From positions 1 through 12,229 of the forward strand of contig JAKAZN010000014.1 of the NCBI GenBank assembly GCA_021815835.1: 12,229 bases of DNA. The letters are read 5' to 3'. Under the pieces are notes generated by a model that did no database searches, had not been told where the DNA came from, and saw only the letters and a program-made list of their open reading frames with translations. Both the position numbers and the translations under genes were made by a program. Shown piece by piece: positions 2 to 3,343 of this stretch (its first letter is position 1; every line of letters starts with the position of its first letter). The stretch is from Pseudomonadota bacterium (GTDB taxonomy: Bacteria; Pseudomonadota; Alphaproteobacteria; Acetobacterales; Acetobacteraceae).

Positions 2-463
2 TATGGCGTGGGCGGGGGCTGCGGGCTGGCGCTCGCCTGCGATTTCCGGGTCGGCGACGAAACCACCAGGATGGGCATCCCGGCGGCCAAGCGCGGCATC
101 GTCTATAGCGTGCTGGACAGCCAGAACCTGCTGCGCACCGTGGGTCTGCCGCGTGCCAAGCTGGTGCTCTATTCGGCCCGGCTGTTCCCGCTGCACGCCT
201 GCCGCGCGATGGGGCTGATCGACGAGGTGGGGGAAGACGGGGCGCTGGCCGCCGCGCGCCGCCTTGCACAGGAGCTCGCCGCCTGCGCGCCGCTGTCGCA
301 GCGCGGCGCGAAGCTCACCCTGGAGGCGCTGGCGCGCGAGGACGTGCCGGCCCGCCTGGGCGAGATCATGGCCGCCCAGAAGCGCGCCGCGGACAGCGAG
401 GATTACCGGGAGGCCACTGCGTCCTTCATCGAGAAGCGCCGCCCGGTCTTCCGGGGGCGCTGA
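2..463 (+). CDS. Enoyl-CoA hydratase/isomerase (crotonase) family protein, 3' part only
   Basis: The last 153 residues of a crotonase-fold protein; the start lies left of the window. The fragment opens with the oxyanion-hole segment YGVGGGCGLALACD (residues 1-14) and ends with the family-typical C-terminal helix ATASFIEKRRPVF. It also has the segment around RTVG and the MGLIDEV block that follow in crotonases. Family members bind acyl-CoA and stabilise an enolate, acting in fatty-acid or aromatic acid breakdown. Compared from memory with rat mitochondrial enoyl-CoA hydratase (GGGCELAMMCD, then QPEILLG), Glu144 is replaced by Gly (codon 23-25) and Glu164 by Ala (codon 83-85). Simple hydratase activity is therefore doubtful; an isomerase, lyase or other crotonase reaction is more likely. 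The family is certain, the substrate unknown. Its 3' end overlaps the opposite-strand SGNH gene by 61 bases. Confidence 0.9.
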   Translation, partial: YGVGGGCGLALACDFRVGDETTRMGIPAAKRGIVYSVLDSQNLLRTVGLPRAKLVLYSARLFPLHACRAMGLIDEVGEDGALAAARRLAQELAACAPLSQRGAKLTLEALAREDVPARLGEIMAAQKRAADSEDYREATASFIEKRRPVFRGR

Positions 464-1539
464 GCGGCCTCCCGCGTCCCGTCCCCCAGAAGCCGGGCGA
501 AATCGGCGCTGAACCGCCGCGCGCCTTCCGGGTTCAGATGCGAGAACCCATCGCCGAAATACCGGTCCGGCCAATGCGGCATGACCGGGCCCACCACCCG
601 GAACCCCGGGTCGCCTGCCGCCGCGTGGGCGAGATAGGCCGCGAATGCGCGCCGCACCGCCGGGCGCACTGCACGGAACGTCGCCGCGTTAACCGGCATG
701 GCGACGAAGTCCACGGGCACGCCGCGCGACCGCGCCAGCGCCAGCAGGGCGCGGAAATACCAGTCCAGCACCGGCAGCGGGCGGAATCGGCGGAGCGCGG
801 CGTCCTCCGCCACCGCCGACGAACCGGGCGCGGTGCCGAAGAAATACTGCCCCCGCGCGGCGAGCACCTGGCGCAGCCGCGCCCGGTTCTCCCACCAGCG
901 CAGGAACACGCCGCCGCGGATCAGCGGCGCGAAGGACAGCGTGGGGAAGCGCACCGCATACAGCGCCGCGCGCAGCCGTGCGGGCTCCCCCGGCGGCAGG
1001 CGCAGCCGCTCGATCGAGGGATCGCCCAGCCGCGCCGAAACCCGCCCGAGGCGGGCCACCCCGCGCGGACCGACGAAGCCGAAAGCGACGCTGCGTTCCC
1101 AGAACAGATCCGGCCGCGCGAAATGCGCCGGGCCGAACGAGAGGATGATCCGCCGCGGCGGATGCGGGCAGGCGAGCGCGCGGCGCAGCGCGGCATAGGC
1201 CTCGATCGACTCGCCGCCGCCGACGGCGAGGTTCACCACCCGGCCCGGCAGCCGCGCCGGCATCAGATCGACCGCGGCGCGCGAATCCCCAAGCACGATC
1301 GTATCGCCGAGGGCGCAGGCGGCGAGCATCCGCTCCTTGGCAAGCCAGGCGGGATATTCCGGGTCGCGGAACGCCAGCGGCATGAACGCGACCCAGAGCC
1401 AGGCAAGCAGGAACACCGCGCCCGCCGCGCCCGCCGCGCCGGCAAGATAGCGACCAGGGGACAACGACCCAGGGGACAACGACCCAGGGGACAACGACTC
1501 GGGAGACAGCGGATCAGAACCGGAAATAGAGGAACTCAC
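403..1539 (-). CDS. Membrane-anchored SGNH/DltD-like acyl-transfer protein
   Basis: A 378-residue protein with one N-terminal membrane segment (about 31-57) and a periplasmic-type SGNH-like domain. Visible motifs are LGDSRA (nucleophile Ser86), NLAVGGGE (103-110), ILSFGPAHF (132-140) and, near the end, FGDGFSHLNPEGA, giving His334 with Asp330. The Asp-His spacing (DxxxH) is one longer than the DxxH I expect in this family. Such proteins partner MBOAT acyltransferases (DltD, AlgX/AlgJ types) and pass an acyl group to a cell-surface acceptor, or help it across. I chose the GTG at 1539, preceded by a G-rich ribosome site (1544-1549). The frame stays open to 1902, but that part is the shadow of the MBOAT gene. 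This start overlaps the MBOAT stop by 26 bases. Residues 11-29 are a repeated SPGSL tract encoded by a 15-bp tandem repeat; TTG codons within or after it are alternative starts. The basic C-terminal tail runs into the convergent crotonase gene. Confidence 0.82.
   Translation of the reverse strand: MSSSISGSDPLSPESLSPGSLSPGSLSPGRYLAGAAGAAGAVFLLAWLWVAFMPLAFRDPEYPAWLAKERMLAACALGDTIVLGDSRAAVDLMPARLPGRVVNLAVGGGESIEAYAALRRALACPHPPRRIILSFGPAHFARPDLFWERSVAFGFVGPRGVARLGRVSARLGDPSIERLRLPPGEPARLRAALYAVRFPTLSFAPLIRGGVFLRWWENRARLRQVLAARGQYFFGTAPGSSAVAEDAALRRFRPLPVLDWYFRALLALARSRGVPVDFVAMPVNAATFRAVRPAVRRAFAAYLAHAAAGDPGFRVVGPVMPHWPDRYFGDGFSHLNPEGARRFSADFARLLGDGTREAAQRPRKTGRRFSMKDAVASR
1454..1513. repeat. 15-bp tandem repeat, three perfect copies plus one decayed copy
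   Basis: The + strand unit ccaggggacaacgac repeats perfectly at 1454-1468, 1469-1483 and 1484-1498, followed by a diverged copy at 1499-1513. Read on the - strand it encodes a Ser-Pro-Gly-Ser-Leu repeat at the very start of the SGNH gene, directly before its membrane segment. Because the unit is 15 bp, copy-number change would keep the frame and alter only the length of the N-terminal cytoplasmic stub. If translation starts downstream of it, the array would instead be a 5' leader. Confidence 0.9.
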
Positions 1540-3076
1540 TGGTCCCCCCGAGCGACAGCAGCCCCAGCGCCGCGGCCCCGCCGATCGCCAGCGCCCAGGG
1601 CAGGCTCGGCCGCCAGACCAGCCACGGCCACGGTCCGGCCCGCACCGGATCGAGCGCCGGGCCGACCGCGCGCATGATCTGCTGCGTATTGGGCGCGCCC
1701 CAGACGATGGCATAGAGCGCAGCGAACCACCCGACCGTCCGCGCCCCGCGCAGCAGCCCGCGCGCGGACAGCCCGGCCGGTATCCCAACCCCATGCAGTC
1801 CCGCCATCCCGCCCAGCATCTGCCCGGCCACCCCCAGGCTGGGCGCGCGGAACACCACCGCGCCCACCAGCACCGCGAGATAGGTAAGCGCGATCCAGCC
1901 AACCCGCGTCGCGCGTCCCTGAACCCGCCCCGGCGCCCCTCCGCGCGCGCCCTGGCGCGGGCCGAAGACCCGCCAGGCGTGATTGGCGATCAGATAGGCG
2001 GCGTGCAGCGCGCCAAAGACGACGAAGGTCAGCCCGCTGCCGTGCCAGATCCCCGCCAGGGTCATCGTGATCCCGATCGGAATCGCCACCATCGCCGCGA
2101 AGCCGCCGGCGGTCGCCTGCCCCGCGCGTCCCACCGCCCGCCCGCGCCCCGCGCGCGCCCGCGCGGCCCGCAGCGCCAGCGGGTTGAACAGATAGAGCGT
2201 GAGGTAGCGCGTCAACGTCATGTGCCAGCGTTGCCAGTACTCGATCACGCTCGCGGCCTTGTAGGGCGAATCGAAATTCAGCGGGAACCGCAGGTTGAAC
2301 ATGCGCGCCAGCCCGATCGCCATGTCGGAATAGCCTGAGAAATCGAAGTAGAGCTGCAACGAATAGCCGCACGCCGCGCGCCACGCCCCGAGCATCGCCA
2401 GCCCCTGCGCGTGACCGAACCCCGCCGCCACCACCGGCGCCAGCGGGTCGGCGAGCAAGGTCTTCTTGAGCAGCCCGATCGTGAAGATGCTCGCCCCGAT
2501 CGCGATATTGCGCGCCGAGACGCGCCAGGTCCCGGCCGCGGCGAATTGCGGCATGATCTCCCGGTGATGCAGGATCGGCCCGGCGATCAGATGCGGAAAG
2601 AAGGTGGCGAACAGCAGATACCCGCGCAGCCCGCGCTCGCGCACCGTGCCGGCGCGGCAGTCGATCAGGTAGCCGAGCTGGGTGAAGGTGAAGAAGCTGA
2701 TCCCGAGCGGCAACGCCGGGCGCGCCATCGCCGCGTCCGCCAGCCCGTGCAGATGCAGGAACCCAACCAGATCCGCCAGATACTTGTAATAGGCGAGCGC
2801 GCCGAGATCGCCCGCGATCGCGGCACACAGCAGCGCGGTCTGCGCCCGCGTGCGCCCCTCGCAGGCCAGGATCGCGCGCGCCAGCGCGTAGTTCCCGCCG
2901 ATCGAGGCGCCAAGCAGCACCAGGAAGGCCGGGTTCCACGCGCCGTAGAACACCAGCGAGGCGACGATCAGCACCCACGCCCCGGCGGCCGGCCCGCCCC
3001 GGCGCGCGGCGAAGGCCACGCAAGCGCGCGCGGCCGGCAGGAAGCCCAGCAGGAAGACGGCGGAGTTGAACAGCAC
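1514..3076 (-). CDS. MBOAT-family membrane O-acyltransferase (DltB/AlgI-like)
   Basis: A 520-residue polytopic membrane protein of the MBOAT family, which moves acyl groups from a carrier to an acceptor through a membrane-embedded funnel. The N-terminus MLFNSAVFLLGFLP is the classic start of DltB/AlgI/PatA proteins. Then come LPLGISFFTFTQLGYLID (122-139), FFPHLIAGPILH (159-170), YFDFSGYSDMAIGLARMF (243-260), WQRWHMTLTRYL (281-292) and GIWHGSGLTFVVFGALH (342-358). His285 and His345 are the two conserved family histidines, the second being the proposed catalytic one. An Ala/Arg/Gly-rich loop (about 301-325) separates them. The start is GTG at 3076, three bases after the ACP stop, with no clear Shine-Dalgarno, so coupled translation is likely. 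Its neighbours, an ACP upstream and an SGNH protein downstream, point to a DltB-like role using an ACP thioester. The acyl group and acceptor cannot be read from the sequence. Confidence 0.95.
   Translation of the reverse strand: MLFNSAVFLLGFLPAARACVAFAARRGGPAAGAWVLIVASLVFYGAWNPAFLVLLGASIGGNYALARAILACEGRTRAQTALLCAAIAGDLGALAYYKYLADLVGFLHLHGLADAAMARPALPLGISFFTFTQLGYLIDCRAGTVRERGLRGYLLFATFFPHLIAGPILHHREIMPQFAAAGTWRVSARNIAIGASIFTIGLLKKTLLADPLAPVVAAGFGHAQGLAMLGAWRAACGYSLQLYFDFSGYSDMAIGLARMFNLRFPLNFDSPYKAASVIEYWQRWHMTLTRYLTLYLFNPLALRAARARAGRGRAVGRAGQATAGGFAAMVAIPIGITMTLAGIWHGSGLTFVVFGALHAAYLIANHAWRVFGPRQGARGGAPGRVQGRATRVGWIALTYLAVLVGAVVFRAPSLGVAGQMLGGMAGLHGVGIPAGLSARGLLRGARTVGWFAALYAIVWGAPNTQQIMRAVGPALDPVRAGPWPWLVWRPSLPWALAIGGAAALGLLSLGGTSEFLYFRF
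1544..1549 (-). promoter_or_regulatory. Ribosome binding site deciding the SGNH gene start
   Basis: A run of six G residues on the - strand lies four bases before the GTG at 1539, inside the end of the MBOAT gene. It is the only purine-rich site near the join, which is why this GTG is preferred over the TTG codons in the repeat. The site is weak and translational coupling to the MBOAT gene probably contributes. Confidence 0.45.
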
Positions 3077-3079
3077 GGG

Positions 3080-3343
3080 TCAAAAGCGGCGCCGCTTCGC
3101 CTCGATCAGGCGGACCAGATCGCTGACCCGGCGCAGCGCCTCGATCTCGGTCGTGCGGAAGGTGATGCCGAAGCGGCATTCGGCTTCCACGACCAGCGCG
3201 ATATGGGCCATGGAATCCCAGCCCGGCACGTCCGCGGCGACGGTGTCGGGGCTGATCGCGAGGTCCGGATCGTCCAGGACCGCGCGGAGGATGTCCGTCA
3301 CTTCGTCGAGGACGGAGCCGGTCGCGAGCGGGGCGAGGATCAA
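3080..3343 (-). CDS. Acyl carrier protein (DltC-like position)
   Basis: An 87-residue acyl carrier protein. The phosphopantetheine site is GWDSMAHIALVVEAE, with Ser44 in the DSM motif at the start of acidic helix II; the size and the preceding acidic stretch (LDDPDLAI) also fit. It would carry an acyl thioester on a 4'-phosphopantetheine arm in the cytoplasm. It lies directly before the MBOAT gene (3-base gap), so it is more likely a dedicated donor, like DltC, than the housekeeping fatty-acid ACP. The start codon is TTG at 3343, supported by a good AGGAG at 3351-3355; no ATG exists near the ACP N-terminus. The C-terminus ends in a basic KRRRF tail. No adenylating ligase or phosphopantetheinyl transferase lies in the window, so the loading route is unknown. 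Confidence 0.93.
   Translation of the reverse strand: MILAPLATGSVLDEVTDILRAVLDDPDLAISPDTVAADVPGWDSMAHIALVVEAECRFGITFRTTEIEALRRVSDLVRLIEAKRRRF

Follow-up and report, generated by a model that had tools for sequence, protein, structure and literature searches.

A conserved ACP-MBOAT-SGNH gene unit that combines a Dlt-like carrier with a PatA-like fused acyl shuttle

Known pathways that join an MBOAT acyltransferase to an SGNH partner include Dlt (DltA-DltB-DltC-DltD-DltX) and the PatA-PatB system of peptidoglycan O-acetylation. In Dlt, the docking surface for the carrier protein DltC is helix HC of DltB, which is contacted by DltC Met36 and Val39 (PMC11035591). The acyl-shuttle motif FXYXXF resides on the separate protein DltX in Dlt and on the C-terminus of PatA itself, where the tyrosine is acetylated and acetyl coenzyme A (acetyl-CoA) is the donor; according to that 2025 paper, MBOAT/SGNH pathways outside Dlt use acyl-CoA without a carrier protein (PMC12148441). 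Passages of another source add nothing further on carriers for MBOATs (PMC9558356). Here we describe a trio of genes for an acyl carrier protein (ACP), an MBOAT and an SGNH protein in a 12,229-nucleotide stretch of an Acetobacteraceae genome (GCA_021815835.1, contig JAKAZN010000014.1; here 'the window', on our contig C558; the source genome is 62% complete). Some proteins related to those of the window are assigned by their sources to Acetobacteraceae, Rhodospirillales or Pseudomonadota.

The trio resembles Dlt in its carrier protein, its MBOAT of DltB fold with an HC-like helix and its membrane-anchored SGNH protein whose model matches DltD. Unlike Dlt, it has neither DltA nor a separate DltX in the window, its shuttle is fused to the MBOAT, and it belongs to a Gram-negative family. 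Because no DltA was found, no DltX occurs in the window and the MBOAT falls under the DltB cut-off, the trio cannot be counted among the Dlt systems. With PatA-PatB it shares an MBOAT ending in FXYXXF and a separate periplasmic SGNH partner, but PatAB uses acetyl-CoA and no carrier, whereas the window operon is led by an ACP gene and its MBOAT has a long docking segment. The alginate (AlgI-AlgJ-AlgX-AlgF) and cellulose (WssFGHI) acetylation systems have the same MBOAT core and shuttle motif; AlgI-type MBOATs differ in a short segment of 40-42 residues, mostly with LRDYLYIPLGG, and no AlgX (PF16822) match was found in the window SGNH protein by Pfam scan. Since the MBOAT itself ends in the shuttle while a carrier gene is present, the system is a hybrid of a DltC-like carrier, a DltB-like core and a PatA/AlgI-like fused shuttle. 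It is best seen as a real, conserved form of envelope acylation by an MBOAT-SGNH pair, with a linked carrier as in Dlt and a fused shuttle as in PatA, and it probably operates as an inner-membrane acylation machine fed by the ACP.

The three genes and their conservation

The trio forms a tight minus-strand unit, in which the ACP gene is followed after a 3-base gap by the MBOAT gene and then by an overlapping SGNH gene.

3080..3343, minus strand: dedicated acyl carrier protein, 87 residues, TTG start (PF00550; homologue beside the MBOAT in four same-genus genomes)
3212..3214, minus strand: ACP Ser44 codon, predicted phosphopantetheine site in WDSM (motif read from the translation)
1514..3076, minus strand: MBOAT acyltransferase, 520 residues, GTG start (PF03062)
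2222..2224, minus strand: MBOAT His285 codon, RWH motif (near-invariant in A1, invariant in A4)
2147..2221, minus strand: MBOAT residues 286-310, helix aligned with DltB helix HC (model and profile alignment to 6bug)
2042..2044, minus strand: MBOAT catalytic His345 codon, WHG (invariant in A1 and A4)
1556..1765, minus strand: MBOAT C-terminal segment, helices 438-460 and 492-507, beyond the DltB-aligned part, residues 1-419 (model)
1517..1534, minus strand: C-terminal acyl-shuttle hexapeptide FLYFRF of the MBOAT, Tyr517 codon 1526-1528 (conservation and PMC12148441)
403..1539, minus strand: membrane-anchored SGNH protein, 378 residues from GTG 1539, start uncertain (model of the 99% identical P0121)
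1282..1284, minus strand: SGNH nucleophile Ser86 codon, GDSRA, in the 378-residue reading (Ser invariant in A5)
538..552, minus strand: SGNH Asp (550-552) and His (538-540) of FGDGFSH (both invariant in A5)

The residues and motifs that an earlier note on this DNA had picked out, namely the DSM serine of the ACP, MBOAT His285 and His345, and the GDSRA and HLNPEGA motifs of the SGNH protein (the latter with its His codon at 538-540), were all found in place. The ACP matched PF00550 at 27.4 bits (cut-off 20.8) and fell under the cut-off of every NCBIfam ACP model, with 16.8 of 68 bits for DltC and at most 25 bits for the general ACP models, far under theirs. A PF03062 score of 59.9 bits (cut-off 27), together with the invariant WHG His345, places the second protein in the MBOAT superfamily. 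The SGNH protein gave a sub-threshold GDSL match to PF13472 (19.4 bits, cut-off 32.9). Its open reading frame is listed from 1902; a start near GTG 1539 is likelier, giving a 26-base overlap with the 3′ end of the MBOAT gene, and later starts are possible. A 15-base repeat in three perfect copies (1454-1498) encodes SLSPG repeats at the SGNH N-terminus.

Across the 16 rows of alignment A1, window included, MBOAT His345 is invariant and His285 nearly so, and Arg306 and Arg308 are invariant in the 42 rows of A4. The DSM motif is kept in 18 of 20 ACPs from loci bearing the window's SGNH type (hereafter SGNHw, aligned in A2), the others having DSL and DDM. The model of P0121 has an N-terminal helix (8-32) followed by an SGNH fold; it matches SGNH enzymes, with DltD among the top Z matches over 232-241 residues. 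A Foldseek search with the SGNH model returned nothing under E 0.001, DltD ranking first at 0.0012, and the SGNH sequence profile found two chance matches only in the PDB.

That the trio is conserved as a unit, as the earlier note supposed, is borne out within and beyond the genus. All three homologues occur in the same order in four of five same-genus genomes (68-75%, 70-75% and 69-71% identity for ACP, MBOAT and SGNH, respectively), so the arrangement is not due to chance; the fifth, G001 (66% complete), gave no match to the SGNH type. At E 1e-10 or better, SGNHw was detected in at least 26 of the 397 genomes of the family, spread over 8 of the 102 genera; the count is a lower bound, with at most five candidates scored per genome. 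The whole trio lies on one stretch in 17 of these 26, one of which (G398) has Asp for the ACP serine. Elsewhere the long-type MBOAT (defined below) is on a different contig (G007, G019), the contig ends at or before the ACP position (G186, G047), MBOAT and SGNH occur without the ACP (G386, G373, G344), or SGNHw is paired with a short-type MBOAT and no ACP (G133). In G326 the ACP abuts the SGNH gene at a contig end with no MBOAT within the stretch, which counts against the ACP-fed reading. The fatty-acid ACP of the window genome is a different protein from the trio ACP and is encoded on another contig (G000:C297, 111.5 bits).

Docking segment, fused shuttle and acyl donor

The MBOAT model has a helix at residues 286-310, and profile alignment to 6bug puts this segment on DltB helix HC, which suggests that it is a putative ACP docking surface. 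Counted from the serine, DltC Met36 and Val39 correspond to Met45 and Ile48 of the trio ACP. We discarded two other lines as evidence of kinship with Dlt. DltB as best fold match is nonspecific because no other bacterial MBOAT figures in the top matches, and the score against the DltB equivalog TIGR04091 (148.4 of 375 bits) is nonspecific because four Paenibacillus MBOATs with short segments reach 166-177 bits.

The segment varies in length, and that variation tracks the carrier gene. The distance between the two histidines was measured in 124 MBOAT frames, from 100 loci, 23 more and the window; 13 FkbH loci entered the same scan and contained no MBOAT frame. For the named loci, the 80 most similar to the window MBOAT were taken out of 587, and L177-L198 were picked by SGNH type. 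Beside the short AlgI type stands a long type of 44-60 residues, which aligns with the DltC-docking helix of DltB and in many cases carries a YNPxxLxxxRxR-like helix. An ACP gene lay within 3.5 kb of 37 of the 48 long-segment MBOATs and of none of the 76 short ones (Fisher p 4e-22, the rows not being independent); when only the named-genome scan is counted (83 MBOATs), the figures are 14 of 18 and 0 of 65. As a control, the final ACP model found the window genome's ordinary fatty-acid ACP at 49 bits, and a maximum-sensitivity rescan beside the 74 frames then classed as short added one marginal candidate (E 0.72). The association suggests that the ACP rather than acyl-CoA is the donor, as the earlier note had presumed.

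Several points weigh against this reading. 'Long' was set at 43 residues or more after the lengths had been seen, a threshold that makes L182 (44) and L061 (49) long and L098 and L102 (42) short. The two classes are largely clades, with seven type changes on a quick tree built without the segment columns, two of them forced by well-supported branches, and an independent-pairs test had no power. With the ACP model, three divergent ACPs next to AMP-ligase-like genes reach no more than 15-17 bits, so that very divergent ACPs beside short types could be missed. The counterpart of DltC Glu40 in the trio ACP is Ala49, and in L178 (10540-10809) the phosphopantetheine serine is replaced by Asp (WDDMD) beside open MBOAT and SGNH frames. 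Finally, 11 of 48 long types have no nearby ACP. In L048, L181 and L192 the contig breaks off within the MBOAT or on the side where the ACP would lie, in L027 and L029 the parts are split over contigs, and L075 is a short contig with a piece of FkbH. This leaves L061, L120, L179, L187 and L191 as simple exceptions; in the last three, the frame preceding the MBOAT looks like YqgE.

Overlooked by the earlier note, the C-terminal FLYFRF makes the MBOAT the only frame in the window ending in FxYxxF. Phe515, Tyr517 and Phe520 show no variation across A1 (16 rows) and A4 (42 rows), and 119 of the 124 MBOATs measured end in FXYXXF. With this terminus on the MBOAT, and an SGNH partner bearing catalytic Ser and His, the pair has two hallmarks of the MBOAT-SGNH acyl-tyrosine pathways of the PatAB/AlgI class. 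Within the window, to which the search was confined, there is no separate DltX-like FXYXXF frame. The clean separation from AlgI/PatA systems that the earlier note had drawn finds no support, because the MBOAT carries the same fused shuttle hexapeptide.

A route for the acyl group can be proposed by analogy with PatA, DltX and DltD, starting from the observed gene unit, residues, predicted folds, conservation and ACP association. A holo-ACP synthase would place phosphopantetheine on Ser44, and a loader encoded elsewhere would charge the carrier with a small acyl group. The acyl-ACP would then dock on the cytoplasmic HC-like helix (286-310), as the alignment and the association suggest, and His345 would drive transfer through the pore onto Tyr517 of the fused FLYFRF, as modelled on PatA and DltX. 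From acyl-Tyr517 the group would pass to Ser86 of the SGNH protein and finally form an ester on a hydroxyl of a periplasmic glycan or lipid.

Candidate loaders and the acyl group

Three kinds of loader accompany other long-type MBOATs, namely FkbH, a DltA-like ligase and a protein resembling amino acid:[ACP] ligase. FkbH, the enzyme that forms glyceryl-S-ACP, works with a stand-alone ACP in tetronate and methoxymalonyl pathways, where glyceryl-ACP feeds polyketides; in the proposed system glyceryl-ACP would feed a membrane acyltransferase. FkbH (TIGR01686) scores 285-308 bits in four scanned loci (L048, L032, L046, L194), and it occurs with a long-type MBOAT in L032, L046, L048, L050, L056, L059, L060, L103, L194 and L226, with a piece in L075. 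Two of these are SGNHw loci. L194 has FkbH, ACP, MBOAT and SGNHw in a single run, and in L048 FkbH is divergent from SGNHw-MBOAT (MBOAT 54%, SGNH only 34% identical to the window's). At the genome level, FkbH is present in 23 of 26 SGNHw genomes (2 of the 23 under the curated cut-off) versus 120 of 371 others (p 1.6e-8). From the two linked relatives and this co-occurrence, FkbH may load the trio ACP with glyceryl; this is the leading candidate for the acyl group, held tentatively and unproven. Among the matches listed, no description of an MBOAT-FkbH-ACP acylation pathway was found in the open-licence literature.

The case for FkbH is tempered in several ways. By genus, the counts are 8 of 8 versus 53 of 94 (p 0.02), and no FkbH was found in the window genome, in G003 (94% complete, trio present) or in G074. 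Of 17 SGNHw genomes fetched to look at this, 16 have an FkbH next to an ACP of its own, in most cases at a distance from the trio. Plain co-occurrence as an argument for FkbH as trio loader is weakened because, within the genus, FkbH accompanies a second long-type MBOAT with its own ACP: both are in G001, G002 (FkbH as a fragment), G004 and G005, and neither is in G003.

Such second systems are seen in their own right. In L030, L031 and L033, of the same genus, a second ACP-MBOAT pair has an MBOAT ending in FIYWQF, and in L226, from another genus, a similar ACP (WDSFAY), FkbH and an MBOAT stand in a row. FkbH-ACP pairs with no MBOAT in the fetched stretch occur in L135, L136, L143, L145, L208, L209, L211, L212, L214, L216-L220 and L222; the ACPs of these stand-alone pairs mostly carry WDSFKQIE.

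Ligases form the other group of loaders. A DltA-like ligase (315-357 bits, TIGR01734 cut-off 560) lies beside long-type MBOATs in L043, L044, L045 and L049, with AlgX-type SGNH proteins in both loci scanned for them (L043, L045). In L043 (8882-15165) and L045 (4003-15144), this ligase, an ACP and an acyl-CoA dehydrogenase adjoin the MBOAT, together with AlgX-type SGNH, AlgF-like and TPR/NfrA_C proteins (some members scanned in one locus only). We take the ligase, ACP and dehydrogenase to be the recipe for a pyrrole-2-carboxyl group, and the set may modify a secreted polymer with an acyl group of an unusual kind. In L073 (9983-13084) and L078 (9980-13032), the amino acid:[ACP] ligase-like protein, an ACP and an MBOAT share one row; the former scores 154-162 bits with NF005479 (cut-off 357) and nearly the same, 154 of 611, with the SerRS model.

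These loaders frame the main alternative within an ACP-fed scheme, in which an amino acid or other carboxylate serves as the acyl group and is loaded in trans by an AMP-forming ligase like DltA. In its favour, ligases of both kinds accompany related long-type MBOATs, and G003 contains the trio without FkbH. The DltA model also gives 24 matches in the window genome, every one under the cut-off, and that genome has two pairs of an ACP with an AMP-ligase-like gene (one of the two ligases scanned). Yet the note's observation that a DltA-type ligase is missing was upheld: none is among the other eight window genes, and none near the cut-off is in the window genome and four congeners, where the best score is 112 of 560 bits. 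No SGNHw neighbourhood contains a homologue of the L043 ligase, and two SGNHw loci carry FkbH instead of a ligase. We therefore regard this alternative as unlikely. A fatty or hydroxy-fatty acyl group, passed from the ACP to a lipid or lipid-linked sugar, is improbable. In its favour, fatty acids are the usual cargo of ACPs, and in several genera the trio adjoins a family III CoA-transferase, sometimes with an enoyl-CoA hydratase; but the genome has its separate fatty-acid ACP, the trio ACP scores poorly with the general models, and the loaders beside other long-type MBOATs belong to families for small acids.

The donor itself would differ if the trio were simply an O-acetyltransferase like PatAB or AlgI that depends on acyl-CoA, with the ACP gene a neighbour doing another job. 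The fused hexapeptide is like that of PatA, which uses acetyl-CoA (PMC12148441). SGNHw loci L179, L187 and L191 retain MBOAT and SGNH without an ACP, and in L180 (7643-10236), which has no ACP either, the partner of SGNHw is an MBOAT of the short AlgI type, a swap of partners found in nature. Against this stand the confinement of nearby ACP genes to long types and the position of the window ACP directly upstream of the MBOAT. An acyl-CoA donor is somewhat less likely than a carboxylate loaded by a ligase, and the ACP-fed machine is the reading we prefer.

Neighbouring genes and significance

By Pfam, the other eight window genes encode an enoyl-CoA hydratase, a GMC oxidoreductase, a ribose-phosphate pyrophosphokinase, an S41 peptidase, an RNB-domain protein, a protein with no match, an SPFH protein and a family III CoA-transferase. 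The GMC oxidoreductase, 77 bases upstream of the trio, was set aside as a partner, having no match in the stretches of four congeners. The family III CoA-transferase recurs beside the trio across genera (window 2-463; L023, L024, L026, L177, L178, L182, L184, L188, L189), joined in the genus and in L177 by an enoyl-CoA hydratase whose gene converges on that of the SGNH protein. None of the window genes was recognised as a glycosyltransferase; the acceptor may therefore be a common envelope component rather than the product of a linked exopolysaccharide cluster.

An ACP-fed trio would be a conserved exception to the generalisation that MBOAT-SGNH pairs outside Dlt use acyl-CoA and no carrier. 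The long segment is found in all 37 MBOATs with an ACP neighbour and in none of the 76 short ones, which makes the question of the donor testable. We know of no established purpose for amino acid:[ACP] ligases, and the row in L073 and L078 would supply one. More broadly, and with the same reserve as for glyceryl, Gram-negatives may hold a broad class of carrier-protein-fed MBOAT-SGNH systems that combine a DltB-type helix and a PatA-type fused shuttle with interchangeable loaders (FkbH, DltA-like ligase, amino acid:[ACP] ligase). The length of the helix would then be enough to tell from sequence alone whether ACP or CoA is the donor, and in the branch of the window glyceryl esters would be put on a common envelope component. 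The system points to envelope modifications beyond acetyl, such as glycerate or amino acids.

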